Source of the DNA: Meghimatium bilineatum
Lineage: Eukaryota; Mollusca; Gastropoda; Stylommatophora; Philomycidae
Length of the DNA: 64,000 bases
Assembly: GCA_034231615.1 (NCBI GenBank)
Contig: CM067319.1
Span: 2,872,501 to 2,936,500 of the forward strand
Reading direction: 5' to 3'
The notes beneath the pieces were generated by a model. That model did not search any database. It saw only the letters and a list, made by a program, of their open reading frames with translations, and was not told the origin of the DNA. How positions within the stretch are numbered: position 1 is the stretch's first letter; the number at the start of each line of letters is the position of its first letter. Made by a program: the position numbers and the translations under genes. Of this stretch, positions 38,060-60,801 are shown one piece after another.

Positions 38060-38482
38060 TTGCCTTGTGAATTAGCTTATCCCTCCTTGCTGCAGTAAGT
38101 ACGTATTATCGATAAGTAGCATATCCCCCCTGCCGCAGTAAGTACGTATTATCGATAAGTAGTATATCCCCCCTGCCGCAGTAAGTATATATTATCGATA
38201 AGTAGCATATCCCCCCTGCTGCAGTAAGTACGTATTATCGATAAGTAGAATATTCCCCCCCTTGCTGCAGTAAGTATATATTATCGATAAGTAGCATATC
38301 CCCCCTGCTGCAGTAAGTACGTATTATCGATAAGTAGAATATTCCCCCCCTTGCTGCAGTAAGTACGTATTATCGATAATTAGCTTATCCCCCACCCCTG
38401 CTGCAGTAAGTACGTATTATCGATAATTAGCTTATCCCCTCCCCTGCTGCAGTAAGTACTTATTATCAATAATTAGCTTATT
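38060..38482 (+). repeat. 43-44-bp tandem repeat, about 9 copies
   Basis: Each unit holds GCAGTAAGTACGTATTATCG, ATAAGTAGCATATCC and a C-rich run. It ends about 50 bp before exon 5. Each unit contains TTATCGATAA, a 10-bp palindrome. Confidence 0.96.
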
Positions 38483-38532
38483 GGTTAAATATCCATAGTT
38501 CATCTGATGACATGTTTGTCTCTCTCTTGCAG

Positions 38533-38594
38533 ATTACGTCATTGAAGATCAAACACAATCCGTTCGCGAAAGCCTTCCTAGACGCCAAAGAGAG
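38533..38594 (+). CDS. bra: Brachyury exon 5 (T-box)
   Basis: A 62-nt exon after TCTCTCTTGCAG and before GAG|GTAAAC. It encodes residues 228-247 (ITSLKIKHNPFAKAFLDAKE) plus two bases of Arg248. The LKI and NPFAKAF core is the T-box C-terminal 3-10 helix region that enters the DNA minor groove. It enters in phase 0 and leaves in phase 2, agreeing with exons 4 and 6. It is too short for ORF detection and was recognised by its motif. Confidence 0.95.
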
Positions 38595-39290
38595 GTAAAC
38601 TTAGCACATGTACTCGCACCTGTACTCGCATGTTAGTTATGTGTCCGTATTGAAGATCTCCCCCCCCCCCTTGAATGCAGAGCCGTAAAAGCATCTTCAA
38701 TTAGGGTCAGGGTTTATCTATTAGAAAAATATCATACGCTCTTTGTCCTGTGTCATTCCTTGTCTTCGTTTTCGTAAAATTTGTGGTGACCTCATCTTTC
38801 CTTTTTTGAAAAAATTGTTAAGGAAAGTGGAAAATGAAAAGGGAGTAGGGGTTGCCTGTCTTTTGACTTCCTAGTACTAAAATTAGCATCAATCTGATTT
38901 TGTAAAGCGGAAGGGGGGGGGGGATTGGTCCCTTATCTATGAGCTTGAGGTATTATATATGGGTTGTATGGTCATAAGTGGTCATCATTACTACCAGAAA
39001 ATTGTTGTAGGCGTTGATGTGAGTGAGTGTCTGCCCTCCGGTGTGTTGCCGTGATCAGAAAGGGGAGTAAAGAATAGCGACAATGTTACCTGACATGTGT
39101 GTGGTAGGAGGCAACTAAGTAGGCGTTGGAGGTGAAGTTGGCTGCCCCATCCCATGCGTTCAAGGTGACCTAGAAGCTATGCTAGAATCATATAAGTTAG
39201 CTCTAAAGGCGAAGATATCGCAGCTAATTAAACCAGGAAACATCGCAACTCTTTGAAATGAGGGAAATGCTTATTAAGGAAATCTATTGA
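38595..39290. other. Intron 5, mostly unrecognised
   Basis: Contains a C tract near 38661 and a G tract near 38915. 39030-39160 is a copy of the dispersed repeat listed at 4867-5945 (AGTAAAGAATAGCGACAATG, GTGAAGTTGGCTGCCC). Confidence 0.5.
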
Positions 39291-39294
39291 CTTT

Positions 39295-39435
39295 TGTTTG
39301 AGGGAATCGTATTGAAAATGAGGGAATCGTATTGAAAATGAGGGAATTGTATTGACAATGAGGGAATCGTATTGAAAATGATATAATTGCATATGAAGAA
39401 ATTGTATTGACAATGAGGGAATTGTATTGGAAATG
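39295..39435. repeat. 20-bp tandem repeat, about 6 copies
   Basis: Unit GAGGGAATCGTATTGAAAAT with variants. Confidence 0.95.
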
Positions 39436-39703
39436 GTCGAATTAGCATTTTATTGTACATCCCCCTCCCAACGTAACGGAGGTGTATCAGCCGCCCAAAT
39501 AATATGAAAAAATATGTTGCATATTAAATGATTATATAGTGTTGGTGTTACATTCTATAAAGCGTGTGAGATGAAGGGAAATGAATTTTATTTGATCACA
39601 AGAGGTAACGAGTGGGTTACCCGCATTCTGTCTATATTTAATGTGGTGTATAATTTTCTCAACCAACGTGTTGTCATCTCTTTCTCTCTCTCTATCTCTA
39701 CAG

Positions 39704-39765
39704 ACCTGATCACACGGAGTATATTGATGACGCCACGTTGGAGAATGAGAGATCGATTGCACATT
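39704..39765 (+). CDS. bra: Brachyury exon 6 (post T-box linker)
   Basis: A 62-nt exon after a long pyrimidine tract and CTACAG, before ATT|GTAAGT. It completes Arg248 and encodes residues 249-268 (PDHTEYIDDATLENERSIAH), leaving one base in phase 1. The KERPDH junction matches the end of the T-box, where Brachyury proteins typically read KER(S/P)D. The rest is an acidic, variable linker. The excellent acceptor and the matched phase are the main support, since the linker itself is not conserved. Confidence 0.9.
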
Positions 39766-40735
39766 GTAAGTCCACTTCTATTATGATTGTAATATTACAT
39801 TCAGCGTTACCACCGCTTGGCTTGTTTCCCAAGTTCTTGGCTTTTTCGATAACACCTTGGGTTATATTCTTTTAAACTTGTTTTTTTTGGTCCATTTCTT
39901 AAAGAGAAATCTTTATTAAATTATCTATAAGAATTCCGCAATAAGTCCAGCTGATTGCTTGTGTATGCTGTGTTGTAGTTTTGAGGTAATTTCCCTCGTT
40001 TATTTTTAATTTACTTGGTTCAAGTATTTCGACACCATCATCATCATCATTGAGTCGAAGACGAAGAGCTAAAGGAGAGGGTACAATCTGATCCTTTCAA
40101 ACTTTATGTGTTGGTTAATGGCACTTCCACATTCACCAGCATGAATAAAATAAAAAAAATATTTTCACAAGTAAATATGGTGAAAATAACACGAATTCTT
40201 CTTCTTCTTGTGTTCACTTGTGAAACATGTATATATCTGCAATTCTGTCTCCTGAATAAAACTCATTGTATTTTGTAGTTAATACACTGCCCTATAGAGC
40301 TTTCATACTAATTTTACTAATAGATTGCATGCTGCTACTGTAACAAACCGGTCATTGGCTAAGCAAACCATTGCAAGAAATAATTATGAGTGTCACTCGT
40401 GAACACCACCAAAAACTCTAGTTGCTGATGTTAAGAAGGCTGTTCTCAGATTACCAACAGACAGCATGCCACAGATGGTCACGAGTCACGACACATAGAC
40501 ATAACAGCTATAAAGCCAGAGTCAGACCATGTAAAAGAAGGATCACAGAAATCAAAGAAGCCACAGGAACAAGCTTACAAACAGCACAAAGGAAGGCCAT
40601 CTCCAAAGAACTCTTCTACCCCTGACGCTGCAAAGCAAACAAGGGATATAGCCTGTGATAGATAGATAGAAAGACTGACAGACAAACAGACAGACAGAAG
40701 GCCGTTGTTATCAACGTTATGTAGAAAGAGTATGG
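39766..40735. other. Intron 6 start, nothing firm
   Basis: 40330-40620 looks like decayed coding matter (a GTCACTCGTGAACACCACC block and an A-rich codon-like stretch), but no domain was recognised. A GATAGATAGA/CAGACAGACAG microsatellite is at 40657-40700. Confidence 0.4.
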
Positions 40736-41575
40736 GAATTTAACCAGGTCTGTTCTAGCAGCACCGAATCGCTTTGCAACACAAGTAAACAGGTTTTCCG
40801 TACTTGACAAACCACATCCCCAAAAAAAGATGTGGCGCGGTCAAGACTTTCAGCCTGTGTACTCAAGACACTGAGAACAGACCAATCGAAACAAGGACTA
40901 TTACAGCATTAACGAACATCCCGTACAAGTATTAAAGTATCCTCAGGAACACAAACACAGAACATGCATATGCGTACACAAGGACCTAAAGGCCTTCTCG
41001 TAAACATAAATAACATAGAGACAGAACAATGTTGCTTCAAATAATATCTTATACAAGTAAATTCAAGTAGGAAGCATGAGGATAAATGAAAATAATTCTT
41101 ACAGCTGACGGGAATTGAACCAGGTCTGTTCTAGCAGCACCGAATCGCTTTGCAACACAAGTAAACAGGTTTTCCGTACTTGACAAACCACATCCCCAAA
41201 AAAAGATGTGGCGCGGTCAAGACTTTCAGCCTGTGTACTCAAGACACTGAGAACAGACCAATAGAAACAAGGACTATTACAGCATTAACGAACATCCCGT
41301 ACAAGTATTAAAGTATCCTCAGGAACACAAACACAGAACATGCATATGCGTACACAAGGACCTAAAGGCCTTCTCGTAAACATAAATAACATAGAGACAG
41401 AACAATGTTGCTTCAAATAATATCTTATACAAGTAAATTCAAGTAGGAAGCATGAGGATAAATGAAAATAATTCTTACAGCTGACGGGAATTGAACCAGG
41501 TCTGTTCTAGCAGCACCGAATCGCTTTGCAACACAAGTAAACAGGTTTTCCGTACTTGACCAACCATATATATAT
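40736..41575 (-). repeat. 376-bp tandem duplication (2.2 copies) carrying a tRNA-like SINE head
   Basis: ACCAGGTCTGTTCTAGCAGC starts at 40743, 41119 and 41495, so the period is 376 bp. The copies are almost identical. On the reverse strand each unit has TTGCAAAGCG and GGTTCAATTCCC boxes in tRNA-like order, suggesting a pol III SINE head. The third unit is cut off at about 41565 by TA repeats. Confidence 0.92.
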
Positions 41576-41579
41576 ATAT

Positions 41580-41626
41580 ATACAAGAAAATATGATATAT
41601 ATATATATATATCATATTTTCTTGGC
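41580..41626. repeat. AT-rich perfect palindrome
   Basis: CAAGAAAATATGATATATAT is mirrored by its reverse complement around a TA core; the third 376-bp unit ends just before it. Confidence 0.9.
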
Positions 41627-42772
41627 TTTAATTTGTCCTCTGACACTTGGGATTTTCTAAATTTTAGTTGGTAACGCTGATTACATTACGAAGAACTTAA
41701 CAAGCTGTAGGCTGGATATGTGAGGATACATGAGAAAATATCCAGAACATGGAACATACATGTAGCATGTAACAATCGCATATCTACTGCATGTCCCAGC
41801 AGGGCCGCTGCTACGTTTTCAGCAAGGATAGAGTTTTACCAGGGACGTAAATACCTTCTCCTCACGGGCGGGGGTTTACCTAAAACTGGTTATTCGTGCG
41901 TTTTTGCGTGTAAGATCTTGTTTTCGATGAAAATCAGATAAAAATTTTGTGAGAAATCGATAGCGGGTTTTATTTGACCACGCCCATAATACTAAATGTC
42001 ATGTGCTGATTTGCCGAGGGAAGGGAAGGGTTTGTGCACCAGTGTGGTGACACACTGCCCCCTGTAAACCAGCCATTATACAGAAAGCGGAGAGATCTTA
42101 CTAATTGATGCTAGAAACTAAACCCGCACAGGTTTCGTGACATCGGTCTTGCTGAAATTGCCAGATGAATAGAAAATTGGTGGCAACTAATGTAATACTG
42201 TCTTGCCGACGTAATAAGACATTTATTAAGCAAATAGGTGTCAAGAGAACCGGCGTCCTAGGGAAATGGTAGAGCAACTGTGTAATCCGTGTCTGTGAAA
42301 TCTCGAGATGAGACAGATAACCAGATCTGTCTGTTGAAATGGGCAGCAGAGAATTTTGATTCGGCTCCAGTAGAAGGCAGATGTCCGATTGATAACCTTT
42401 TGAAAGGGAAATTGGCAAGTTGAAAATTGGGATTTGCGTGGGACTGAGTGCAACCTTCTGGTTGGACTAAGGGACCAGAGAGGGGCCGTCCCAGAATCTA
42501 TTGACAGGAGAGTATAATTTTATCCGTGCCGTGAGCAGGGATGCTAGAGCTTGACGAATGGGCTGTTTTGACTCAAAAGAGGGTGGGGTCTATCTTTCAA
42601 CATTAAATAGGATGTTTCAGACTTCACTTGAGTAGTCAGCGGGTCGGCAGGTCAGTAGAGACTTAGTCGAGAGTCAGTTAGTCAGGCCCGTAGTGTAGAC
42701 CAGTTATAGGGACTTAGATTCCGGAGTTGGGTTTTGAGATCCTGTGCTCTACCATAGAGCCGAACAAACTCA
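41627..42772. other. Intron 6 spacer left of the palindromic element
   Basis: No ORF with a recognised domain. AGTCAGTTAGTCAGG-type phrases near 42640-42690 are low-complexity. This is the left flank of the insertion. Confidence 0.45.
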
Positions 42773-42778
42773 CTCGTC
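42773..42778. repeat. Target-site duplication, left (CTCGTC)
   Basis: CTCGTC immediately before AGTAGTATAATAGG. The identical hexamer follows the right end at 56474-56479. Confidence 0.88.
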
Positions 42779-43176
42779 AGTAGTATAATAGGTTAATTTG
42801 GATATATTTTTTCCTGCCGCAAAGAATATATAAGGATTAATTTGGCGCAAACGGCAAAGAAGGATTAATTCCAAGGGACACAGGGGTTGGCTGAGTTTTT
42901 CTGGGGTTTTCTTGAGGTATTTTAAAAAAATATTTTGAAATTGTTCAAAATTTTGATTTTAATTTTATGGCAATTTTTTTCCTGGAATTTTTGTGTTTTG
43001 TTTCGTTTGTTATTTTCTAATGTTTAGGGCCTAGTGTTTAATGTAGTACCGTCCGATATCTCCGGCCTTTACTTGTTGATATTGTTGTGATGTCATGTCA
43101 GAGTAAATTGTCATAATGCGTGACGGTCTCTACATACAAGAATTATTCTCAAAAACCCTTTATCTCTTCTGTTTTG

Positions 43177-43464
43177 ATGTTACATATATCTTTAACTGAT
43201 TCTACGGGTGAGTTGGACCAAGATATGCGGGCGGTTTTAGCTCGTGGTGATTTAACCAATCATGAAAAATCTACACTATACCAAAAAACATTACAACAGT
43301 ATCTGAATCGGCTCAGTCAATACAAAAACATACCTATGAAGCTATTAGAGAACACGCAGTATTCGGTACCAAGTGCCTCAATACAGAAAGATGAAGAACC
43401 CACTGAAAAAATTCCAGAGAAAGTCGAAGTGATGCCCGCCTATGTTGAAGCCGTGGCGTCTTAG
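43177..43464 (+). CDS. Small conserved ORF of the palindromic element, copy 1
   Basis: 95 codons from the first in-frame ATG (43177) to TAG at 43462. The core is GELDQDMRAVLARGDLTNHE then KSTLYQKTLQQYLNRLSQYK. The phrase LD.(D/E)M..(I/V)L....L...EK..LY...LQ.YL resembles a small protein often found in Polinton/Maverick-like animal repeats; this is recollection, not a search. The last ten residues come from the loop. Function unknown. No promoter or splice site is defined. Confidence 0.5.
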   Translation: MLHISLTDSTGELDQDMRAVLARGDLTNHEKSTLYQKTLQQYLNRLSQYKNIPMKLLENTQYSVPSASIQKDEEPTEKIPEKVEVMPAYVEAVAS

Positions 43465-43723
43465 GCATCACTTCGACTTTCTCTGGAATTTTTTCAGTGG
43501 GTTCTTCATCTTTCTGTATTGAGGCACTTGGTACCGAACACTGCGTGTTCTCTAATAGCTTCATAGGTATGTTTTTGTATTGACTGAGCCGATTCAAATA
43601 CTGTTGTAATGTTTTTTGGTATAGTGTAGATTTTTCATGATTGGTTAAATCACCACGAGCTAAAACCGCCCGCATATCTTGGTCCAACTCACCCGTAGAA
43701 TCAGTTAAAGATATATGTAACAT
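43334..43723 (-). CDS. Small conserved ORF of the palindromic element, copy 2
   Basis: Mirror copy in the second arm of the left inner palindrome. It has the same core (LYQKTLQQYLNRL), but the frame runs through the loop and into the complement of copy 1, giving a different, longer C-terminus. The start is placed at the ATG corresponding to copy 1. Confidence 0.45.
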   Translation of the reverse strand: MLHISLTDSTGELDQDMRAVLARGDLTNHEKSTLYQKTLQQYLNRLSQYKNIPMKLLENTQCSVPSASIQKDEEPTEKIPEKVEVMPKTPRLQHRRASLRLSLEFFQWVLHLSVLRHLVPNTACSLIAS

Positions 43724-44113
43724 CAAAACAGAAGAGATAAAGGGTTTTTGAGAATAATTCTTGTATGTAGAGACCGTCACGCATTATGACAATTTACTCT
43801 GACATGACATCACAACAATATCAACAAGTAAAGGCCGGAGATATCGGACGGTACTACATTAAACACTAGGTCCTAAACATTAGAAAATAACAAACTAAAC
43901 AAAACACAAAAATTCCAGGAAAAAAATTGCCATAAAATTAAAATCAAAATTTTGAAAAATTTCAAAATATTTTTTTAAAATACCTCAAGAAAACCCCAGA
44001 AAAACTCAGCCAACCCCTGTGTCCCTTGAAATTAATCCTTCTTTGCCGTTTGCGCCAAATTAATCCTTATTTATTCTTTGCGGCAGGAAAAAATATATCC
44101 AAATTAACCTATT

Positions 44114-44626
44114 TCCTGCTGCAAAGAATATATAAGGATTAATCTGGCGCAAAGACATATAATAAATATTACTTCTAGGAAAAGGACCACTTGACTGATC
44201 TTTTCTGTGGTTTTCTTGAGGTATTTAAAAAAAAACTCGAGTTTTTTTATTTTAATTCTGTGATTTCTGGTTAAAATTGTTTATTTTCAATTTTACTTAT
44301 TATTTATTTGTTGGATTTTTCTTGTTGTTTGTTATGTCTTGTTTATATTTTGGAGTTGTTGCTACATGCCTAAGTTTAACAGAATTACCACCCCTCGGGT
44401 TGTCTCGAGTTATCTACCTCTATGGAGTTAGAACGCGTCTAAACTTAGTTCGCGACCAGGCTGACCTTACTGGTGTTATGACACATTCCTGAACCGGTTC
44501 AGAGTTTGAGCACTAGGTAAACCTTCCGCGAACAAATACCATTTTTATCGACGGACGTTTTTTCCGGCTGTATCACTACGCCAGCTAGAACTAGGGCGGC
44601 CAGATGCGCACCAGTTACTCTACAAA
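44114..44626 (+). repeat. Unique block of the left arm
   Basis: Begins with a diverged third copy of the end block start (CTGCTGCAAAGAATATATAA, GGATTAATCTGGCGCAAA), then a TTCTTGAGGTATTT phrase and a 71-codon open frame (44277-44492) without recognised motif. It is mirrored at about 54620-55130. Confidence 0.8.
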
Positions 44627-47600
44627 TTTTCCTATTTTTATGTAGCAACAGCGTTCATATTACATATTTGCATATGACAAACTGTATATTTTTCACGGTT
44701 TAAAACTAAGCAAGCCGATTTTAAAACGGTTGACAATGATAAACTTCATATTTAGCTCTTTTGAGAAATTGGTAAACTGCCTTTAACACATTTTATTATG
44801 GTTACAGACATTGGATGGTGGTTTTCTAGACTTATAAGCCAAATCTTCCTATTTTTATGTAGAAACAGGGTTCATATTACATAGTTGCATATGTCACACT
44901 GTATATTTTTCACTTATAAAACGAAGCACGCCGCTATTAAAACGATTCCGTATGATAAACTTCATATTTATCTCTTTTCGCAACTAGGCAAAGGCCTTTA
45001 AAAACATTTGTTATGGTCACAGATATGGATTCGTTGTTTTCTAGGCCTACAAGACAAAACTTCCTATTTTTATGTAACAACAGGGTTCATATTACATAGT
45101 TGCATATGACAAATTGTATATTTTTCACGTTTTAAAAACTAAGCACGCCGCTTTCAAAACTGTTCCATGTGATAAACTTCATAATTAGCACAATTCACAA
45201 CTAGGTAACCCAACTTTAACACATTTTGTTATGGTCACAGATATTGGGTGGTGGTTTTCTAAACACACAAGACAAATGTTCCTTGTTTTATGTAATAAAA
45301 GTGTTCATATTATATAGTTGCATATGAGAAACTGTATATTTTTCACGTTTAAAACTAAGCAAGTCGATTTTAAAACGGTTGAAAATGATAAACTTCATAT
45401 TTAGCTCTTTTGAGAAATTGGTAAACTGCCTTTAACACATTTTGTTATGGTTACAGACATTGGATGGTGGTTTTCTAGACTTATAAGCCAAATCTTCTTA
45501 TTTTTATGTAACAACGGGGTTCATATTACACATTTGCATATGACACACTGTATATTTTTCACGTTTTAAAACGAAGCAGGCCGCTTTTAAAACGGTTCCA
45601 TGTGACACACTTCATATTTAGCTCTATTCACAACTAGGCAACACGCCATTCAAACATTTTGTTATAGTCACAGACATTGTATGGTGGTTTTCTAGACTTA
45701 CAAGACAAATGTTCCTATTTGTATGTTAACAACAGTATTCAAATTACATATTTGCATATGACAAACTGTATATTTTTCACTTTTTAAAACGACGCACGCC
45801 GCTATTAAAACGATTCCATATGATAAACTTCATATTTATCTTTTTCGCACCTAGGCAACCCGCCATTAAAAATATCTGTTATGGTCACAGATACTGAGTC
45901 GTAGTTTTCTAGACTTACAAGACAAAATTTCCTATTTTTATGTAGAAACAGGATTCATATTACATAGTTGCATATGTCAAACTGTATATTTTTCACTTAT
46001 AAAACGAAGCACGCCGCTATTAAAACGATTCCGTATGATAAACTTCATATTTATCTCTTTTCGCAACTATGCAAAGGCCTTTAAAAACATTTGTTATGGT
46101 CACATATTTGGATTCGTGGTTTTCTAGACTTACAAGACAAAACTTCCTATTTTATGTAACAACAGGGTTCATATTACAAAGTTGCATATGACAAATTGTA
46201 TATTTTTCACATTTTAAAAACTAAGCAAGCCGCTTTCAAAACTGTTCCATGTGATATCCTTCATAATTAGCACAATTCACAACTAGGTAACCCAACTTTA
46301 ACACATTTTGTTATGGTCACAGATATTGGGTGGTGGTTTTCTAAACATACAAGACAAATGTTCCTTGTTTTATGTAATAAAAGTGTTTATACTATATATT
46401 TGCATATGAGAAACTGTATATTTTTCACGTTTTAAAACTAAGCAAGCCGATTTTAAAACGGTTGAAAATGATAAATTTCATATTTAGCTCTTTTGAGAAA
46501 TTGGTAAATGCCTTTAACACATTTTGTTATGGTTACAGACATTGGATGGTGGTTTTCTAGACTTATAAGCAAAATCTTCTTATTTGTATGTAACAACAGG
46601 ATTCATATTACACATTTGCATATGACACACTGTATATTTTTCACGTTTTAAAACGAAGCAGGCCGCTTTTAAAACGGTTCCATGTGACACACTTCTTATT
46701 TAGCTCTATTCACAACTAGGCAACACGCCTTTCAAACATTTTGTTATAGTCACAGACATTGTATGGTGGTTTTCTAGACTTACAAGACAAATGTTCCTAT
46801 TTGTATGTTAACAACAGTATTCAAATTACATATTTGCGTATGACAAACTGTATATTTTTCACTTTTTTAAAACGAAGCACGCCGCTATTAAAACGATTCC
46901 ATATTATAAACTTCATATTTATCTTTTTCGCACCTAGGCAACCCGCCATTAAAAACATTTGTTATGGTCACAGATACTGAGTCGTAGTTTTCTAGACTTA
47001 CAAGACAAAACTTCCTATTTTTATGTAGAAACAGGATTCATATTACATAGTTGCATATATCAAACTGTATATTTTTCACTTATAAAACGAATCACGCCGC
47101 TATTAAAACGATTCCGTATGATAAACTTCATATTTATCTCTTTTCGCAACTAGGCAAAGGCCTTTAAAAACATTTGTTATGGTCACAGATATGGATTCGT
47201 TGTTTTCTAGGCCTACAAGACAAAACTTCCTATTTTATGTAACAACAGGGTTCATATTACAAAGTTGCATATGACAAATTGTATATTTTTCACATTTTAA
47301 AAACTAAGCAAGCCGCTTTCAAAACTGTTCCATGTGATATCCTTCATAATTAGCACAATTCACAACTAGGTAACCCAACTTTAACACATTTTGTTATGGT
47401 CACAGATATTGGGTGGTGGTTTTCTAAACATACAAGACAAATGTTCCTTGTTTTATGTAATAAAAGTGTTTATACTATATATTTGCATATGAGAAACTGT
47501 ATATTTTTCACGTTTTAAAACTAAGCAAGCCGATTTTAAAACGGTTGAAAATGATAAATTTCATATTTAGCTCTTTTGAGAAATTGGTAAATGCCTTTAA

Positions 47601-50600
47601 CACATTTTGTTATGGTTACAGACATTGGATGGTGGTTTTCTAGACTTATAAGCAAAATCTTCTTATTTGTATGTAACAACAGGGTTCATATTACACATTT
47701 GCATATGACACACTGTATATTTTTCACGTTTTAAAACGAAGCAGGCCGCTTTTAAAACGGTTCCATGTGACACACTTCTTATTTAGCTCTATTCACAACT
47801 AGGCAACACGCCTTTCAAACATTTTGTTATAGTCACAGACATTGTATGGTGGTTTTCTAGACTTACAAGACAAATGTTCCTATTTGTATGTTAACAACAG
47901 TATTCAAATTACATATTTGCGTATGACAAACTGTATATTTTTCACTTTTTAAAACGAAGCACGCCGCTATTAAAACGATTCCATATTATAAACTTCATAT
48001 TTATCTTTTTCGCACCTAGGCAACCCGCCATTAAAAACATTTGTTATGGTCACAGATACTGAGTCGTAGTTTTCTAGACTTACAAGACAAAACTTCCTAT
48101 TTTTATGTAGAAACAGGATTCATATTACATAGTTGCATATATCAAACTGTATATTTTTTACTTATAAAACGAATCACGCCGCTATTAAAACGATTCCGTA
48201 TGATAAACTTCATATTTATCTCTTTTCGCAACTAGGCAAAGGCCTTTAAAAACATTTGTTATGGTCACAGATATGGATTCGTTGTTTTCTAGGCCTACAA
48301 GACAAAACTTCCCATTTTTATGTAACAACAGGGTTCATATTACATAGTTGCATATGACAAATTGTATATTTTTCACGTTTAAAAACTAAGCAAGCCGCTT
48401 TCAAAACTGTTCCATGTGATAAACTTCATAATTAGCACAATTCACAACTAGGTAACCCAACTTTAACATATTTTGTTATAGTCACAGATATTGGGTGGTG
48501 GTTTTCTAAACACACAAGACAAATGTTCCTTGTTTATGTAATAAAAGTGTTCATATTATATAGTTGCATATGAGAAACTGTATATTTTTTTCACGTTTGA
48601 AAACTAAACAAGCCGATTTTAAAACGGTTGAAAATGATAAATTTCTTATTTAGCTTTTTTGAGAAATGTGTAAACGGCCTTTAACACATTTTTTATGGTT
48701 ACAGACATTGGATGGTGTTTTTCTAGACTTATAAGCCAAATCTTCTTATTTTTATGTAACAACAGGGTTCATATTACACATTTGCATATGACACACTGTA
48801 TATTTTTCACGTTTTAAAACGAAGCAGGCCGCTTTTAAACGGTTCCATGTGACACACTTCATATTTAGCTCTATTCACAACTAGGCAACACGCCTTTCAA
48901 ACATTTTGTTATAGTCACAGACATTGTATGGTGGTTTTCTAGACTTACAAGACAAATGTTCCTATTTGTATGTTAACAACAGTATTCAAATTACATATTT
49001 GCATATGACAAACTGTATATTTTTCACTTTTTAAAACGAAGCACGCCGCTATTAAAACGAGTCCATATGATAAACTTCATATTTATCTTTTTTCGCACCT
49101 AGGCAACCCGCCTTTAAAAACATTTGTTATGGTCACAGATACTGAGTCGTAGTTTTCTAGACTTACAAGACAAAACTTCCTATTTTTATGTAGAAACAGG
49201 GTTCATATTACATAGTTGCATATGTCAAACTGTATATTTTTCACTTTATAAAACGAAGCACGCCGCTATTAAAACGATTCCGTATGATAAACTTCATATT
49301 TATCTCTTTTCGCAATTAGGCAAAGGCCTTTAAAAACATTTGTTATGGTCACAGATATGGATTCGTGGTTTTCTAGACCTACAAGACAAAACTTCCTATG
49401 TTTATGTAACAACAGGGTTCATATTACATAGTTGCATATGACAAATTGTATATTTTTCACGTTTTAAAAACTAAGCAAGCCGCTTTCAAACTGTTCCATG
49501 TGATAAACTTCATAATTAGCACAATTCACAACTAGGTAACCCAACTTTAACATATTTTGTTATAGTCACAGATATTGGGTGGTGGTTTTCTAAACACACA
49601 AGACAAATGTTCCTTGTTTTATGTAATAAAAGTGTTCATATTATATATTTGCATATGAGAAACTGTATATTTTTTCACGTTTTAAAACTAAGCAAGCCGA
49701 TTTTAAAACGGTTGAAAATTATAAACTTCCTATTTAGCTCTTTTGAGAAATTGGTAAACTGCCTTTAACACATTTGTTATGGTTACAGACATTGGATGGT
49801 GGTTTTCTATACTTATAAGCCAAATCTTCTTATTTTTATGTAACAACAGGGTTCATATTACACATTTGCATGTGACACACTGTATATTTTTCACGTTTTA
49901 AAACGAAGCAGGCCGCTTTTAAAACGGTTCCATGTGACACACTTCATATTTATCTTTTTCGCACCTAGGCAACACGCCTTTCACACATTTTGTTATAGTC
50001 ACAGACATTGTATGGTGGTTTTCTATACTTACAAGACCCATGTTCCTATTTGTATGTTAACAACAGTATTCAAATTACATATTTGCATATGACAAACTGT
50101 ATATTTTTCACTTTTTATAGCGAAACACGCCGCTATTAAAACGATTCCGTATGATAAACTTCATATTTATCTTTTTTCGCACCTAGGCAACCCGCCTTTA
50201 AAAACATTTGTTATGGTCACAGATATGGATTCGTGGTTTTCTAGGCCTACAAGACAAAACTTCCTATTTTTATGTAACAACAGGGTTCATATTACATAGT
50301 TGCATATGACAAATTGTATATTTTTTCACGTTTTAAAAACTAAGCAAGCCGCTTTCAAAACTGTTCCATGTGATAAACTTCATAATTAGCACAATTCACA
50401 ACTAGGTAACCCAACTTTAACACATTTTGTTATGGTCACAGATATTGGGTGGTGGTTTTCTAAACATACAAGACAAATGTTCCTTGTTTTATGTAATAAA
50501 AGTGTTTATACTATATATTTGCATATGAGAAACTGTATATTTTTCACGTTTTAAAACTAAGCAAGCCGATTTTAAAACGGTTGAAAATGATAAATTTCAT

Positions 50601-50760
50601 ATTTAGCTCTTTTGAGAAATTGGTAAATGCCTTTAACACATTTTGTTATGGTTACAGACATTGGATGGTGGTTTTCTAGACTTATAAGCAAAATCTTCTT
50701 ATTTTTATGTAACAACAGGGTTCATATTACACATTTGCATATGACACACTGTATATTATT
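44627..50760 (+). repeat. Satellite array, about 217-bp monomers, five-monomer higher-order repeat (left arm)
   Basis: About 28 monomers. Each has TTATGGTCACAGA (or variant), a TTTTCTAGACTTACAAGACA block, TATTTTTATGTAACAACAG, TTGCATATGAC and GTATATTTTTCAC. Five monomer types repeat in the order b-c-a-d-e with a period of about 1,083 bp (for example the GATACTGAGTCG type at 45879, 46962, 48043 and 49126). One e monomer is missing near 50180. Confidence 0.95.
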
Positions 50761-50769
50761 CACGTTTTA

Positions 50770-50870
50770 AAACGAAGCCGGCCGCTTTTAAAAGCGCTTT
50801 CTCTCTCAATATATAAGAGAGAGAGAGAGAGGGAGAGAGCGCTTTAAAAAGCGGCCGGCTTCGTTTTAAA
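50770..50870. repeat. Centre of the giant palindrome
   Basis: AAAAGCGCTTTCTCTCTC faces GAGAGAGCGCTTT across AATATATAAG and a GA run (50808-50832). GCCGGCCGC is present in both arms; these core-proximal bases differ from the ordinary monomer. Confidence 0.92.
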
Positions 50871-53800
50871 ACGTGAAAAATATACAGTGTGTCATATGCA
50901 AATGTGTAATATGAACCCTGTTGTTACATAAAAATAAGAAGATTTTGCTTATAAGTCTAGAAAACCACCATCCAATGTCTGTAACCATAACAAAATGTGT
51001 TAAAGGCATTTACCAATTTCTCAAAAGAGCTAAATATGAAATTTATCATTTTCAACCGTTTTAAAATCGGCTTGCTTAGTTTTAAAACGTGAAAAATATA
51101 CAGTTTCTCATATGCAAATATATAGTATAAACACTTTTATTACATAAAACAAGGAACATTTGTCTTGTATTAAACATACACCCAATATCTGTGACCATAA
51201 CAAAATGTGTTAAAGTTGGGTTACCTAGTTGTGAATTGTGCTAATTATGAAGTTTATCACATGGAACAGTTTTGAAAGCGGCTTGCTTAGTTTTTAAAAC
51301 GTGAAAAAATATACAATTTGTCATATGCAACTATGTAATATGAACCCTGTTGTTACATAAAAATAGGAAGTTTTGTCTTGTAGGCCTAGAAAACCACGAA
51401 TCCATATCTGTGACCATAACAAATGTTTTTAAAGGCGGGTTGCCTAGGTGCGAAAAAAGATAAATATGAAGTTTATCATACGGAATCGTTTTAATAGCGG
51501 CGTGTTTCGTTATAAAAAGTGAAAAATATACAGTTTGTCATATGCAAATATGTAATTTGAATACTGTTGTTAACATACAAATAGGAACATGGGTCTTGTA
51601 AGTATAGAAAACCACCATACAATGTCTGTGACTATAACAAAATGTGTGAAAGGCGTTTTGCCTAGGTGCGAAAAAGATAAATATGAAGTGTGTCACATGG
51701 AACCGTTTTAAAAGCGGCCTGCTTCGTTTTAAAACGTGAAAAATATACAGTGTGTCACATGCAAATGTGTAATATGAACCCTGTTGTTACATAAAAATAA
51801 GAAGATTTGGCTTATAAGTATAGAAAACCACCATCCAATGTCTGTAACCATAACAAATGTGTTAAAGGCAGTTTACCAATTTCTCAAAAGAGCTAAATAG
51901 GAAGTTTATCATTTTCAACCGTTTTAAAATCGGCTTGCTTAGTTTTAAAACGTGAAAAAATATACAGTTTCTCATATGCAAATATATAATATGAACACTT
52001 TTATTACATAAAACAAGGAACATTTGTCTTGTGTGTTTAGAAAACCACCACCCAATATCTGTGACTATAACAAAATATGTTAAAGTTGGGTTACCTAGTT
52101 GTGAATTGTGCTAATTATGAAGTTTATCACATGGAACAGTTTGAAAGCGGCTTGCTTAGTTTTTAAAACGTGAAAAATATACAATTTGTCATATGCAACT
52201 ATGTAATATGAACCCTGTTGTTACATAAAAATAGGAAGTTTTGTCTTGTAGGTCTAGAAAACCACGAATCCATATCTGTGACCATAACAAATGTTTTTAA
52301 AGGCCTTTGCCTAATTGCGAAAAGAGATAAATATGAAGTTTATCATACGGAATCGTTTTAATAGCGGCGTGCTTCATTTTATAAAGTGAAAAATATACAG
52401 TTTGACATATGCAACTATGTAATATGAACCCTGTTTCTACATAAAAATAGGAAGTTTTGTCTTGTAAGTCTAGAAAACTACGACTCAGTATCTGTGACCA
52501 TAACAAATGTTTTTAAAGGCGGGTTGCCTAGGTGCGAAAAAAGATAAATATGAAGTTTATCATATGGACTCGTTTTAATAGCGGCGTGCTTCGTTTTAAA
52601 AAGTGAAAAATATACAGTTTGTCATATGCAAATATGTAATTTGAATACTGTTGTTAACATACAAATAGGAACATTTGTCTTGTAAGTCTAGAAAACCACC
52701 ATACAATGTCTGTGACTATAACAAAATGTTTGAAAGGCGTGTTGCCTAGTTGTGAATAGAGCTAAATATGAAGTGTGTCACATGGAACCGTTTAAAAGCG
52801 GCCTGCTTCGTTTTAAAACGTGAAAAATATACAGTGTGTCATATGCAAATGTGTAATATGAACCCTGTTGTTACATAAAAATAAGAAGATTTGGCTTATA
52901 AGTCTAGAAAACCACCATCCAATGTCTGTAACCATAACAAAATGTGTTAAAGGCATTTACCAATTTCTCAAAAGAGCTAAATATGAAATTTATCATTTTC
53001 AACCGTTTTAAAATCGGCTTGCTTAGTTTTAAAACGTGAAAAATATACAGTTTCTCATATGCAAATATATAGTATAAACACTTTTATTACATAAAACAAG
53101 GAACATTTGTCTTGTATGTTTAGAAAACCACCACCCAATATCTGTGACCATAACAAAATGTGTTAAAGTTGGGTTACCTAGTTGTGAATTGTGCTAATTA
53201 TGAAGGATATCACATGGAACAGTTTTGAAAGCGGCTTGCTTAGTTTTTAAAATGTGAAAAATATACAGTTTGACATATGCAACTATGTAATATGAATCCT
53301 GTTTCTACATAAAAATAGGAAGTTTTGTCTTGTAAGTCTAGAAAACTACGACTCAGTATCTGTGACCATAACAAATATTTTTAATGGCGGGTTGCCTAGG
53401 TGCGAAAAAGATAAATATGAAGTTTATCATATGGAATCGTTTTAATAGCGGCGTGCGTCGTTTTAAAAAGTGAAAAATATACAGTTTGTCATATGCAAAT
53501 ATGTAATTTGAATACTGTTGTTAACATACAAATAGGAACATTTGTCTTGTAAGTCTAGAAAACCACCATACAATGTCTGTGACTATAACAAAATGTTTGA
53601 ATGGCGTGTTGCCTAGTTGTGAATAGAGCTAAATATGAAGTGTGTCACATGGAACCGTTTTAAAAGCGGCCTGCTTCGTTTTAAAACGTGAAAAATATAC
53701 AGTGTGTCATATGCAAATGTGTAATATGAACCCCGTTGTTACATAAAAATAAGAAGATTTGGCTTATAAGTCTAGAAAACCACCATCCAATGTCTGTAAC

Positions 53801-54626
53801 CATAACAAAATGTGTTAAAGGCAGTTTACCAATTTCTCAAAAGAGCTAAATATGAAGTTTATCATTTTCAACCGTTTTAAAATCGACTTGCTTAGTTTTA
53901 AACGTGAAAAATATACAGTTTCTCATATGCAACTATATAATATGAACACTTTTATTACATAAAACAAGGAACATTTGTCTTGTGTGTTTAGAAAACCACC
54001 ACCCAATATCTGTGACCATAACAAAATTTTGTTAAAGTTGGGTTACCTAGTTGTGAATTGTGCTAATTATGAAGTTTATCACATGGAACAGTTTTGAAAG
54101 CGGCGTGCTTAGTTTTTAAAACGTGAAAAATATACAATTTGTCATATGCAACTATGTAATATGAACCCTGTTGTTACATAAAAATAGGAAGTTTTGTCTT
54201 GTAGGCCTAGAAAACAACGAATCCATATCTGTGACCATAACAAATGTTTTTAAAGGCCTTTGCCTAGTTGCGAAAAGAGATAAATATGAAGTTTATCATA
54301 CGGAATCGTTTTAATAGCGGCGTGCTTCGTTTTATAAGTGAAAAATATACAGTGTGACATATGCAACTATGTAATATGAACCCTGTTGTTACATAAAAAT
54401 AGGAAGATTTGGCTTATAAGTCTAGAAAACCACCATCCAATGTCTGTAACCATAATAAAATGTGTTAAAGGCAGTTTACCAATTTCTCAAAAGAGCTAAA
54501 TATGAAGTTTATCATTGTCAACCGTTTTAAAATCGGCTTGCTTAGTTTTAAACCGTGAAAAATATACAGTTTGTCATATGCAAATATGTAATATGAACGC
54601 TGTTGCTACATAAAAATAGGAAAATT
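50871..54626 (-). repeat. Satellite array, right arm (inverted)
   Basis: The same monomers on the opposite strand, about 17 copies. Compared with the left arm, 11 monomers are missing: a switch within type a near 52905 (five monomers) and an e/b hybrid monomer near 53265 (six monomers). Confidence 0.93.
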
Positions 54627-55138
54627 TGTAGAGTAACTGGTGCGCATCTGGCCGCCCTAGTTCTAGCTGGCGTAGTGATACAGCCGGAAAAAACGTCCGT
54701 CGATAAAAATAGTATTTGTTCGCGGAAGGTTTACCTAGTGCTCAAACTCTGAACCGGTTCAGGAATGTGTCATAACACCAGTAAGGTCAGCCTGGTCGCG
54801 AACTAAGTTTAGACGCGTTCTAACTCCATAGAGGTAGATAACTCGAGACAACCCGAGGGGTGGTAATTCTGTTAAACTTAGGCATGTAGCAACAACTCCA
54901 AAATATAAACAAGACATAACAAACAACAAGAAAAATCCAACAAATAAATAATAAGTAAAATTGAAAATAAACAATTTTAACCAGAAATCACAGAATTAAA
55001 ATAAAAAAACTCGAGTTTTTTTTTTAAATACCTCAAGAAAACCACAGAAAAGATCAGTCAAGTGGTCCTTTTCCTAGAAGTAATATTTATTATATGTCTT
55101 TGCGCCAGATTAATCCTTATATATTCTTTGCGGCAGGA
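54627..55138 (-). repeat. Unique block of the right arm
   Basis: Mirror of 44114-44626, including the 71-codon open frame at 54759-54974 on the reverse strand. Confidence 0.85.
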
Positions 55139-55528
55139 AATAGGTTAATTTGGATATATTTTTTCCTACCGCAAAGAATATATAAGGATTAATTTGGCGC
55201 AAACGGCAAAGAAGGATTAATTCCAAGGGACACAGGGGTTGGCTGAGTTTTTCTGGGGTTTTCTTGAGGTATTTTAAAAAAATATTTTGAAATTTTTCAA
55301 AATTTTGATTTTAATTTTATGGCAATTTTTTTCCTGGAATTTTTGTGTTTTGTTTCGTTTGTTATTTTCTAATGTTTAGGGCCTAGTGTTTAATGTAGTA
55401 CCGTCCGATATCTCCGGCCTTTACTTGTTGATATTGTTGTGATGTCATGTCAGAGTAAATTGTCATAATGCGTGACGGTCTCTACATACAAGAATTATTC
55501 TCAAAAACCCTTTATCTCTTCTGTTTTG

Positions 55529-55816
55529 ATGTTACATATATCTTTAACTGATTCTACGGGTGAGTTGGACCAAGATATGCGGGCGGTTTTAGCTCGTGGT
55601 GATTTAACCAATCATGAAAAATCTACACTATACCAAAATACATTACAACAGTATTTGAATCGGCTCAGTCAATACAAAAACATACCTATGAAGCTATTAG
55701 AGAACACGCAGTGTTCGGTACCAAGTGCCTCAATACAGAAAGATGAAGAACCCACTGAAAAAATTCCAGAGAAAGTCGAAGTGATGCCCGCCTATGTTGA
55801 AGCCGTGGCGTCTTAG
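55529..55816 (+). CDS. Small conserved ORF of the palindromic element, copy 3
   Basis: Same 95-codon protein as at 43177, with Asn for Lys in LYQNTLQQYL and Cys for Tyr in the TQCSVPS stretch. The ending again comes from the loop. Confidence 0.5.
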   Translation: MLHISLTDSTGELDQDMRAVLARGDLTNHEKSTLYQNTLQQYLNRLSQYKNIPMKLLENTQCSVPSASIQKDEEPTEKIPEKVEVMPAYVEAVAS

Positions 55817-56075
55817 GCATCACTTCGACTTTCTCTGGAATTTTTTCAGTGGGTTCTTCATCTTTCTGTATTGAGGCACTTGGTACCGAACACTGCGTGT
55901 TCTCTAATAGCTTCATAGGTATGTTTTTGTATTGACTGAGCCGATTCAAATACTGTTGTAATGTATTTTGGTATAGTGTAGATTTTTCATGATTGGTTAA
56001 ATCACCACGAGCTAAAACCGCCCGCATATCTTGGTCCAACTCACCCGTAGAATCAGTTAAAGATATATGTAACAT
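55686..56075 (-). CDS. Small conserved ORF of the palindromic element, copy 4
   Basis: Reverse-strand partner of copy 3, with the read-through C-terminus like copy 2. It shares the LYQNT variant with copy 3. Confidence 0.45.
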   Translation of the reverse strand: MLHISLTDSTGELDQDMRAVLARGDLTNHEKSTLYQNTLQQYLNRLSQYKNIPMKLLENTQCSVPSASIQKDEEPTEKIPEKVEVMPKTPRLQHRRASLRLSLEFFQWVLHLSVLRHLVPNTACSLIAS

Positions 56076-56473
56076 CAAAACAGAAGAGATAAAGGGTTTT
56101 TGAGAATAATTCTTGTATGTAGAGACCGTCACGCATTATGACAATTTACTCTGACATGACATCACAACAATATCAACAAGTAAAGGCCGGAGATATCGGA
56201 CGGTACTACATTAAACACTAGGCCCTAAACATTAGAAAATAACAAACGAAACAAAACACAAAAATTCCAGGAAAAAAATTGCCATAAAATTAAAATCAAA
56301 ATTTTGAAAAATTTCAAAATATTTTTTTAAAATACCTCAAGAAAACCCCAGAAAAACTCAGCCAACCCCTGTGTCCCTTGGAATTAATCCTTCTTTGCCG
56401 TTTGCGCCAAATTAATCCTTATATATTCTTTGCGGCAGGAAAAAATATATCCAAATTAACCTATTATACTACT

Positions 56474-56479
56474 CTCGTC
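56474..56479. repeat. Target-site duplication, right (CTCGTC)
   Basis: Identical to 42773-42778. Confidence 0.88.
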
Positions 56480-57404
56480 GTTTGAGACTTGGACTTAGTT
56501 GCGTTGGAGACCCGTAGCAAGAGAGACTTGTTATCACCCTCGAAGGTGAACTGAGGCACGTAAGGTTTGGACCTGCCAGAAGTCAAAGTTCAGAGTTAGG
56601 ACATAGAGCAAATAGTCTGTATCCTTAGATAGAGAAGTTGGAAGTGTGATAGCTGCCAGATCTAGATAGAGTCTATAGAATATACAGTAGAATATCCTTA
56701 TATGCAGTCTTCGATATGTGACTTACAATGCACGAGATACCTGGACAGATTATTGTTATTGTCATCGTAATATTGTAACTTGTAAACAAACTATTGTGTT
56801 ATGCTAGAGCAGTCGGAGTTGAACCTTCTATGTTTATCATGTCAAATGAATGTAATACTGTTTGTTGGGGACAAACTGACACAACACAGATGTTAATGAA
56901 CGGCTACAGATAGTGATACCTTCTGATCCCTATACGTAAGTATTAGTTGCTGATACATCACGCGCCAAGAGAGAAGAAAGCTAATGACATAGGATCCTGG
57001 TCATGACACCAGAGAACAGAAACTTATGGTTCTGATGGTTCTGATGTATCTGATGGTTCTAATGAATCTGATTGACTGAAAAATCGATTACTGATACCAT
57101 CTGAACCCCTATCATGTTCCCTTAAATACGTGCCAGGATTGTATCTATAAAAAGGCATGTCGCACGTTGTCGTGTATAATTCTCTTTTGGGTAGTGGTGG
57201 GGAGAATTGTGACTTTTGTTGCTAGAAAACTTTGGAAGAGTGGGGGGGGGGGGATTACTCATACTCGACTACATTTCGAGTACTAAAATCATGATCTGAT
57301 TTGCTGAGCGAAGGGAGGTCTGTGGCCCCTACCCCTACACTTTAACTACGGGCTTGCATCCTAGAATCGCATTGAGAATGAGTATGTAGATAGAAATGAC
57401 GATA
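56480..57404. other. Intron 6 spacer right of the palindromic element
   Basis: No gene recognised. It has a short GATGGTTCTGATG repeat near 57030 and a G tract at 57242-57253. Confidence 0.45.
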
Positions 57405-57405
57405 G

Positions 57406-58078
57406 TATCTCTTGCGTGACTGTCAGCCTGGTTGTCTTGCGTGACTGTCAGCCTGGTTGTCTTGCGTGATTGTCAGCCTGGTTGTCTTGCGTGATTGTCA
57501 GCCTGGTTGTCAGCCTGGTTGTCTTGCGTGATTGTCAGCCTGGTTGTCAGCCTGGTTGTCTTGCGTGATTGTCAGCCTGGTTGTCTTGCGTGACTGTCAG
57601 CCTGGTTGTCTTGCGTGACTGTCAGCCTGGTTGTCTTGCGTGACTGTCAGCCTGGTTGTCTTGCGTGATTGTCAGCCTGGTTGTCTTGCGTGACTGTCAG
57701 CCTGGTTGTCTTGCATGACTGTCAGCCTGGTTGTCTTGCGTGATTGTCAGCCTGGTTGTCTTGCGTGATTGTCAGCCTGGTTGTCAGCCTGGTTGTCTTG
57801 CGTGATTGTAAGCCTGGTTGTCAGCCTGGTTGTCTTGCGTGATTGTCAGCCTGGTTGTCTTGCGTGACTGTCAGCCTGGTTGTCTTGCGTGACTGTCAGC
57901 CTGGTTGTCTTGCGTGACTGTCAGCCTGGTTGTCTTGCGTGATTGTCAGCCTGGTTGTCTTGCGTGACTGTCAGCCTGGTTGTCTTGCGTGACTGTCAGC
58001 CTGGTTGTCTTGCGTGATTGTCAGCCTGGTTGTCTTGCGTGATTGTCAGCCTGGTTGTCTTGCGTGATTGTCAGCCAG
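57406..58078. repeat. 25-bp minisatellite, about 26 copies
   Basis: Unit GTCTTGCGTGACTGTCAGCC plus TGGTT, with C/T variants and shortened GTCAGCCTGGTT units. Confidence 0.98.
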
Positions 58079-58540
58079 CCACCAGTACAAATAGTCACTG
58101 TATCAGATTCTCAGAATATGCTGGACAAGATGGAAATATGCAGATGAGAAACCAACAGGTCATCGATTCGAACAGACCTCAAGCACAAAGTATCACATGG
58201 ATCTATTGAGCATGTCATGTGGGAGGCACAGACAATAGAAGAATTGAGGCGTTATGGAAAACACTTCAGTAAGTGGCAGTTTAGTAACTCCCTTTCGGGC
58301 CCCGGCAACACACCGATGAAGATGGCAATACAGTTTTTCTAATCACTGGTAATAAACACGATAGCACATAAAAATGGACGTAGTGACAAAAATTTCCTTA
58401 TCGAGAACACACGATAACACACGAGTAATTAATGACACTTTAATTTACGTTCACATCCTAATGGATATAGGCAAGAAACACATATCACAGGTATACTGGT
58501 TATATGCGATGTGTTCTCAGTGACGAACTAAACATAAGCA
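58079..58540. other. Intron 6 spacer, dispersed-repeat fragment
   Basis: 58285-58350 (CTTTCGGGCCCCGGCAACAC) belongs to the family listed at 4867-5945. Nothing else. Confidence 0.45.
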
Positions 58541-59214
58541 CCTTGCTGCAAGTTACACCTGTTGCAAGTTTCATATGTTGCAAGTTACACTTGTTGCAAG
58601 TTTCATCTGTTGCATGTTTTACACTGTTGCAAGTTTCAACTGCTGCAAGTTTCATCTGTTGCATGTTTTACACTGTTGCAAGTTTCACTTGTTTTAAGTT
58701 ACACCTGTTACAAGTTTCATCTGATGCATGTTTCACTTTGTTGCCAGTTTCACCTTCTGCAAGTTACACCTGTTGCATTTTTCACCTTTTGCAAGTTTCA
58801 CCTGCTGCAAGTTTCACCTTTTGCAAGTTTCATCTGTTGCAAGTTACACCTGTTGCATGTTTCACCTGTTGCATGTTTCACCTGTTGCAAGTTTCATCTG
58901 TTGCAAGTTACATTTGTTGCAAGTTTCGTCTGTTGCATATTTTACACTGTTGCAAGTTTCACCTGTTGCAAGTTACACCTGTTGCAAGTTTCATCTGTTG
59001 CATGTTTTACACTGTTGCAAGTTACACCTGTTGCATTTTTCACCTTTTGCAAGTTTCACCTGTTGCAAGTTTCACCTGTTGCATGTTTTACACTGTTGCA
59101 AGTTACACCTGTTGCATTTTTCACCTTTTGCAAGTTTCACCTGTTGCAAGTTTCACCTGTTGCAAGTTTCACCTGCTGCAAGTTTCATCTGTTGCAAGTT
59201 TCACCCTTTTGCAT
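58541..59214. repeat. 16-17-bp minisatellite, about 40 copies
   Basis: Units of the type CACCTGTTGCAAGTTT with TCATCTG, TACACTG and CATGTTT variants. All three + frames are open for about 200 codons because the unit lacks stops. Confidence 0.98.
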
Positions 59215-59399
59215 TTCGTTGGCCAGCATTAGCACGGGATACAAAGTGTATATATATAGTGACCAACAACGAAAATCACGGCAAAAACCGACAACATGAC
59301 CCAAAAAGCTTATTTGGATTATTTTGGAAGGTCTTATATTAGCGGTCACGGTTCTGGTAATCTAGTCAAACCGACTGCCGAAGATAAATCATAACTACC

Positions 59400-59512
59400 G
59401 CATCGGCGTCCAGAGCTGTTTATCTGGTTATGGTTACTGGCGTCCGGAGCTGTTTATCTGGTTATGGTTACTGACGTCCGGAGCTGTTTATCTGGTTATG
59501 GTTACTGTTTAG
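59400..59512. repeat. 34-bp tandem repeat, 3 copies
   Basis: Repeats of TCCGGAGCTGTTTATCTGGT followed by TATGGTTACTG. Confidence 0.93.
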
Positions 59513-59569
59513 AACATCGTTTAAAGAGCATGATGGCAGGACAAAAATTCAAGAAACGTTATTCAAGTT

Positions 59570-60240
59570 AAATAAGTTGAAGAAAGTGGCTTGATGAAAG
59601 ATATAAGTGAGATGTTTGAGGAAAACTATGAATGAAATGTTTGAGGAATGCTATAAATGTCACCAGAAGAGACTGACAGAGAAATGAAATATGAAGAAAG
59701 AAAGAAAGATCATCTCAAGTCAAGAGTACATCGAGATTAGCAAACTAGGTGCTTGGCCACATCATGAGAATGGAACCAATGCAACCAGTTTTTCGTTCTT
59801 GCAGACAACAGCAGAAGATTGTGCTACAAGGCACTAGGAAGACAACAGCAGAAGATCGTGCTACAAGACACTAGGAAGACAACAGCAGAAGATCATGCTA
59901 CAAGGCACTAGGAAGACAACAGCAGAAGATTGTGCTACAAGGCACTAGGAAGACAACAGCAGAAGATCGTGCTACAAGGCACTAGGAAGACAACAGCAGA
60001 AGATCGTGCTACAAGGCACTAGGAAGACAACAGCAGAAGATCGTGCTACAAGGCACTAGGAAGACAACAGCAGAAGATCGTGCTACAAGGCACTAGGAAG
60101 ACAACAGCAGAAGATTGTGCTACAAGGCACTAGGAAGACCAAGAATTAGATGAGTGGAGACAATCAAAGAAACCTGAATGATACACGGGCCGACCATTGC
60201 ATATGTGACCCAAATGGCCAAAGATAAACAACTTCAACTG
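59570..60240 (+). pseudogene. LINE C-terminal remnant, expanded by a minisatellite
   Basis: GATGTTTGAGGAAAACTATG, ATCATCTCAAGTCAAGAGTA, CTTGGCCACATCATGAGAAT and GGCACTAGGAAGACCAAGA are in the same order as 17500-17740. Frames are broken. Confidence 0.6.
59804..60137. repeat. 37-bp minisatellite within LINE remnant, 9 copies
   Basis: Unit GACAACAGCAGAAGATCGTG plus CTACAAGGCACTAGGAA, starting at 59804, 59841 and 59878 and onwards. Confidence 0.97.
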
Positions 60241-60454
60241 TCCCCCATAACGCTTAACGACACAAGTAGAAATAGCAATAGATAAATACATATATTAAAA
60301 TAAATAGATAAATAGATATGTAGGTTGGTAGGTAGGTAGATAGATCAAGTTGAAACACTTTTGTGATTTGTTTTAATAATGTTTGATATTATGTAACGGT
60401 TTTGAAACAAAATATTCCGTGTAATTATCGTGTTTTGTGTGTGCTAAATCTCAG

Positions 60455-60622
60455 TTACAACTCCATGGTACCTTCAGTCACCCACACACACCATAATACC
60501 TGCTCCAGCTCACCAGTTTACTCCACACCTGGGACTAGGTAACCTCCACTGTGACAGATTAAACTACAGGAATTCCAGATCAAGCTACCATCCTTACCAG
60601 CGGCGTTCTCCTACACCTCACG
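60455..60622 (+). CDS. bra: Brachyury exon 7 (C-terminal region, partial gene)
   Basis: A 168-nt exon lying 20.7 kb after exon 6. With the acceptor GCTAAATCTCAG|TTACAA it continues exon 6 exactly in phase 1 (Phe269 split) and stays open to the donor CACG|GTGAGT, leaving in phase 1. It encodes residues 270-324, including TTPWYLQSP, which resembles the family's GW(F/L)LPG block, and LHCDRLNYRNSRSSYHPYQ with RRSP, which resembles the CDR..RSHRSSPY region. A competing acceptor at 60477 gives a stop in the required phase. The next exon was not found in 60623-64000. Confidence 0.82.
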
Positions 60623-60664
60623 GTGAGTTTTTTCTTTCCACTTTCCCTCATTTAAACATAATCG

Positions 60665-60801
60665 TATACCTCTTCTCGCATCTCTCTATTATCTCGCATC
60701 TCTCTATTATCTCGCATCTCTCTATTATCTCGCATCTCTCTATTATCTCGCATCTCTCTATTATCTCGCATCTCTCTATTATCTCGCATCTCTCTATTAT
60801 C
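60665..60801. repeat. 19-bp minisatellite, about 7 copies
   Basis: Unit TCTCGCATCTCTCTATTAT. Confidence 0.97.

Follow-up and report, generated by a model that had tools for sequence, protein, structure and literature searches.

A satellite-filled palindrome of the gastropod Meghimatium bilineatum belongs to one of several palindromic families with Polinton-type ends

The 64,000-nucleotide stretch of the Meghimatium bilineatum genome analyzed here (GCA_034231615.1, contig CM067319.1, positions 2,872,501 to 2,936,500 of the forward strand; hereafter the window) contains a 13.7-kb palindrome, F1, whose copies elsewhere in the genome make up a family that we call F. This family is one of several palindromic families (F, S, T, H and G), and in some of them each arm retains long open frames. 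Our observations suggest that palindromic elements related to Polintons, which are virus-like transposons, are able to spread as mirror-image double units. We consider it probable, though well short of certain, that these families are Polinton-derived inverted dimers, which would have been produced by hairpin copying during protein-primed replication and inserted by an integrase acting in trans, and that F is a satellite-filled, non-autonomous family of such dimers.

The F1 palindrome and its copies

F1 occupies positions 42779-56473 of the window, between direct 6-bp repeats of CTCGTC that form the left (42773-42778) and right (56474-56479) target-site duplications. An initial annotation, made from the letters of the window alone, had reported an inverted repeat whose ends coincide with a CTCGTC duplication, and both the repeat and the coincidence are borne out. 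The arms measure 8039 and 5656 bp about the axis, in agreement with the earlier figures of about 8.0 and 5.6 kb; the 25-nt core given there needs correction, the innermost arms lying 21 nt apart. A single continuous BLAST path covers the outer 5657 columns, over which the inverted arms are 91.2% identical, and identity reaches 99% in the longest inverted blocks without gaps (658-1876 bp).

Both ends of F1 are themselves palindromic, with 650-bp arms separated by 27 nt (42787-44113 and 55139-56465). From outside to inside, each arm runs through an outer block A, an inverted copy A', a block B of ~500 bp and an array of ~217-bp satellite units, the satellite that had been reported to fill the arms. 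On the left, block A (42779-43449, + strand) joins a T-type terminal repeat, its first ~409 bp beginning AGTAGTATAATAGG, to ~250 bp of a G-family gene (T and G are described below). In A' (43451-44121, - strand), the ~8 nt at the very tip of the terminus are missing, the exact arms being 42787-43436 and 43464-44113. Block B (44114-44621, + strand) is diverged terminal sequence and is followed by the left array (44622-50793, + strand, 28.5 units), in which the satellite has a higher-order period of ~1083 bp. The axis (50794-50842) is a CT/GA-rich tip containing CAATATATAAG. Beyond it lie the inverted right array (50843-54629, - strand, 17.5 units), B' (54630-55138, - strand; inverted pair 44224-45227 / 54024-55027), the right-end A' (55127-55801, + strand) and the right-end A (55803-56473, - strand), which terminates in ...CTACT and gives the element its AG...CT ends.

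The outer block contains a 115-aa stop-to-stop frame (43117-43461, + strand), residues 23-108 of which match the 245-aa zinc-finger-protein frame of the G palindromes. Pfam and PHROG scans of this short frame gave no convincing family, and a protein search gave no relative. The initial annotation had found core genes absent from this copy, and we agree: tblastn with DNA polymerase B (polB) gave no match in the window, so there is none in F1, and no capsid, protease or packaging ATPase gene was seen in the frames scanned. Nor does F encode a transposase, polymerase or integrase in those frames.

The genome search with the outer ~650 bp that had been proposed was carried out with the outer 651 bp of F1 as the query. 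Of 985 candidates in the 1.61-Gb genome, 40 were scored. The search returned at least 88 matches, which include at least 12 pairs of inverted ends spaced 10.8-16.1 kb apart (F1, F2-F4 and F6-F13); the whole sequence was read for 11 of these copies, and F13 was read at its ends only. Exact 6-bp duplications flank 11 of the 12 pairs, each duplication different from the others. Because 12 paired, same-ended copies exist and 11 of them have their own exact duplication, the palindrome is not a product of chance, and the claim that it moved as a unit stands. For arms of F2, F6, F7 and F8, the nearest arm belongs to another copy, with 0-3 changes over 2.6 kb, and the family has therefore moved recently.

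The remaining pair, F4 (C22:83297407-83310069; L013, L014 and L047-L052), has mirrored flanks in place of a 6-bp duplication. The flanks are 99.9% identical to each other's mirror image over 1011 bp, 97.8% near 3 kb and 99.8% near 8 kb, with no mirrored match at 20 kb. Given these flanks and the doubled tip at its axis, F4 is either a chromosomal inverted duplication centered on an F element or an assembly error. F5 (C22:83253801-83255143; L004), an isolated A-A' palindrome of 1.35 kb, has complete ends but no 6-bp duplication, and its flanks are also mirrored and more diverged.

Related palindromes and their genes

Five pairs among the outer-block matches share with F only the 410-bp terminal repeat (98.5% identical in T1) and constitute the T family; exact 6-bp duplications flank all five. 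T1 (L029/L030) is a 14.0-kb palindrome whose halves are 99.97% identical over 7001 bp and whose axis lies inside a truncated polB gene. The frame at this axis had 510 protein matches at E <= 0.001, and many of the 120 listed carry PF03175; named matches among those listed come from the gastropods Plakobranchus, Elysia and Nucella, and also from a lancelet and a bacterial metagenome-assembled genome. With such proteins as tblastn queries, polB pieces were found in T1-T5 (matches from six queries, among those listed). Pfam missed these broken pieces, which were detected by the protein search and tblastn. A search of viral contigs with the polB piece confirmed no relative, and one of solved structures found nothing. 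The centers of T3 and T4 are palindromic, and T2 and T5 look like palindromes that lost part of one arm. Relics of the terminal repeat are layered in each arm of T1, one at its end and others at about 1.5 and 2.77 kb. Five single ends from the outer-block search were considered as possible intact helpers and dropped, since all are T-like and one has a partner 14 kb away.

F, T, H, G and S form a wider set of palindromes whose ends start AGTAGTATA (a variant end in the S copy). Allowing up to 2 mismatches, the 23-nt end occurs at 86 genome sites, and a reversed control at 0. Six of the newly found end pairs were tested, five belonging to H and one to S, and every one has an exact 6-bp duplication (H 5/5, S 1/1). 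H1 (C4:19309229-19323870) has ends that match over 982 bp at 99.7% and a center palindromic over 2.5 kb at 99.6%. The polB frame of H matches PF03175 at E 2e-9. At the four further H pairs, sequence 0.9-1.15 kb from the ends is 98-100% identical to H1 and inverted between the ends (98.4-100%). The S pair contains the F satellite at 97%.

The H1 polB piece (640 aa) was then used as the query for a polB census (69 of 888 candidates scored; counts are lower bounds). Among rows at 86-100% identity, 34 of 38 form 17 divergent inverted pairs, assigned to H, and 4 are unpaired. Seven of these 17 pairs have frames of 1449-1453 aa in both arms with no stop within the match, six have a single TGA in each arm, and the remaining pairs have shorter frames or stops. 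Rows at 67% identity are never in inverted pairs (0/31), and one same-strand pair was seen. The neighborhood of this 67% family was read at one locus, where two neighbors of the polB score above the cut-off, a PC4-like gene and a protease of adenovirus type (PF00770); from these neighbors, the family looks like an ordinary Polinton. At C24:19411000-19417000 (L046), an open 1350-aa polB frame lies beside a protease-like frame recognized by eye, without a Pfam match, and an integrase-like frame, also recognized by eye, is interrupted by a stop (rve_2 at E 0.019 only). This neighborhood was considered as a candidate helper and rejected: the 6 kb read contain no match to the T1 left arm or to the F1 end.

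The outer-block frame of F1 served as the query for a G census, in which 150 rows were scored of 727 candidates. Thirty-nine of the 150 rows are F or F5 copies. The other 111, of G type, comprise 94 rows that form 47 converging inverted pairs, 739-1209 bp apart, and 17 unpaired rows; 109 of the 111 matches are without a stop. Loci L053-L055 lie almost entirely within palindromes that have the 245-aa frame in each arm. This frame matches zf-C2H2 at E 7e-5, below the cut-off, and its protein has one relative, 68% identical. G1 (C1:119156501-119169573) spans 13.07 kb; its palindromic arms are 99.6% identical, and it has the common end. GACTGC flanks it on both sides (G: 1/1 read), which is weaker evidence of a duplication because the site is a tandem repeat containing GACTGC. 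Each G1 arm carries a PC4-like frame (E 2e-4, below the cut-off), a P-loop frame and the 245-aa zinc-finger frame. The P-loop frame gives weak AAA matches and continues into a microsatellite; it may be a packaging ATPase.

The first 409 bp of F1 match the T end and the following ~250 bp match the G frame, so the families recombine. Block B of F is 72-76% identical to an inner layer of T, which is in turn 96.6% identical to H, starting 34 nt inside the H end. T and F thus look like older palindromes (H and S) to which either nested insertion or template switching added a new outer end, and F in particular looks like an S satellite palindrome whose ends were replaced by a block of T-type end and G gene piece. 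Derivation of F by simple end deletion of one Polinton was dropped in view of this composite outer block.

Arms, copies and the origin of the palindromes

In a static palindrome, the arms would be expected to diverge as fast as the copies do. The T family has a different pattern. T1 and T3 diverge by ~3.4%, versus 99.97% identity between the halves of T1. At their centers, 20 sites differ between T1 and T3 with both arms agreeing, and the arms disagree at 4; for T1 and T4 the corresponding counts are 22 and 1. In the mechanism that we favor, the starting form would be a linear half unit, protein-primed at one end and closed by a hairpin at the other. Copying from the protein-primed end, round the hairpin and back would yield a palindrome whose second arm has been newly templated by the first, and this inverted dimer, two half units head to head, would then be inserted by a Polinton-type integrase supplied in trans, F providing no protein of its own. 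The axis tip, recognizable in 11/11 F copies, occurs in either orientation relative to the longer arm: when all tips are written the same way round, F1, F6 and F8 have their longer arm on the left, and F2, F3, F10, F11 and F12 have theirs on the right. The arms of F9 are nearly equal, and the tip is symmetrical in F7. These orientations fit copying round a hairpin.

Several observations weigh against this account. The ends of T5 differ at 7/534 sites. At the informative sites of F (a test that omits F13, the left arm of F9 and the right arm of F11), both arms agree in every copy at 9 and disagree at 5, and arms of F1, F3 and F12 are nearer to another copy than to their own partner. Changes in satellite number could imitate tip flips. 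The frame in F has no assignable function. F4, with its flanks included in the mirror, can be taken as a sign of mirrored duplication within the chromosome. The stretches of F, T, H and G that were read revealed no RVE integrase, and none is tied to the ends. No extrachromosomal hairpin form was observed.

The alternative that survives best, which we regard as rather unlikely, is that these are static foldback transposons. Each family would descend from one inverted duplication of a Polinton piece, followed by ordinary terminal-repeat spread, and gene conversion between the arms after insertion would maintain their identity. A single founding event would suffice to explain the one axis tip common to F copies, the disagreement of F arms at 5/14 informative sites speaks for it, and conversion between nearby palindrome arms is well known. 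However, changes between T copies fall nearly all on both arms, even in copies so young that their duplications are still exact, and the unrelated gene sets of H, G and S are all palindromic, for which a single founding accident offers no explanation. A second alternative, that F is moved by a different transposon superfamily with duplications of 6 bp and that the polB and PC4-like genes are passengers, appears improbable. Other such superfamilies exist, and F encodes no transposase, polymerase or integrase in the frames scanned, but these termini and this duplication length are shared by elements in which polB (H) or PC4-like, P-loop and zinc-finger frames (G) take up most of the sequence, and the PC4 region of G has 77% DNA identity with its counterpart in the 67% polB element carrying the adenovirus-type protease. 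An assembly artefact, in which faulty reads or joins produced the mirrored sequence, is very improbable: it could also explain the F4 flanks, mirrored for at least 8 kb, but not the exact, all-different direct duplications at 11/12 F pairs or F arms that are unequal in length and have their own differences.

Polintons are characterized by 6-bp duplications and AG...CT ends, and the initial annotation had rightly noted both in F1. The duplication length holds across the set (F 11/12, T 5/5, H 5/5, S 1/1, G 1/1; F5 none), the AG...CT terminal inverted repeats include the 410 bp common to F and T, and related palindromes carry polB (H) or PC4-like and P-loop frames (G). Because elements with the same end carry polB, the proposed tie of F1 to Polinton-type genes holds; the single, unusual foldback derivative that had been envisaged does not, as F is one family among F, S, T, H and G. 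In the excerpts consulted, Polintons are described as 15-20 kb (PMC4028283) or 15-25 kb (PMC6431247) long, with polB and integrase in one element. Here, in contrast, the elements are inverted dimers, with polB and PC4-like genes on separate palindromes, and F itself has no core gene, polB being absent from F1 and present in the related H. As for capsid, protease and packaging ATPase, F1 has none in the frames scanned, the P-loop frame of G matches AAA families weakly, and a protease lies beside the 67% polB, outside these families. No description of a palindromic Polinton was found among the titles and abstract openings returned by our literature searches.

Foldback and Galileo transposons are characterized by a transposase of the P type and by duplications that are not 6 bp long, whereas duplications here are 6 bp, relatives carry polB, and no P-type transposase Pfam match was seen in the frames scanned. 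The abstract of PMC3573991 places Galileo in the P-element group and describes long, internally repetitive inverted arms, a feature that F shares. Our searches found no paper on inverted dimers of protein-primed replicons as such. Yet protein-primed linear plasmids and defective adenovirus genomes form palindromic inverted dimers, and these resemble the present elements in being inverted duplications of one end of a protein-primed replicon. They differ in being extrachromosomal; here, multi-copy families are inserted in chromosomes.

Polinton replication and movement are inferred largely from gene content. If a protein-primed replicon copies itself round a hairpin, mobile palindromes whose arms are apparently recopied in each copy would be the trace that this leaves in a genome, and the genome studied here allows polB lineages with and without palindromic form to be compared directly. 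Such palindromes also provide a route for carrying satellite arrays about the genome, and F4 suggests that such palindromes may trigger large inverted duplications of the chromosome. A bolder reading is possible, though we doubt it: a Polinton-like lineage whose genome would natively be divided into palindromic segments, with H, carrying two full-length polB frames, and G, carrying two sets of packaging-side genes, each inserted separately with its own 6-bp duplication and the satellite palindromes S and F riding along. If true, F would be the satellite element of a multipartite Polinton that replicates by way of a hairpin. With no integrase tied to the ends, and with part of the ends read, none of them from an element lacking palindromic form, we do not adopt it as our verdict.

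Flanks of F1

The initial annotation had placed F1 in intron 6 of Brachyury. This placement found no support in the part of the window scanned for a T-box: a stop-tolerant Pfam scan of the flanks (37900-42772 and 56480-61000, + strand, three frames) detected no family at E 0.01. Elsewhere in the window, at 26698-30628, retroelement frames match gag weakly and also match an aspartyl protease, and several unrelated tandem arrays (periods 25, 16 and 37) occur near the right flank, at 57410-58076, 58547-59205 and 59803-60000.
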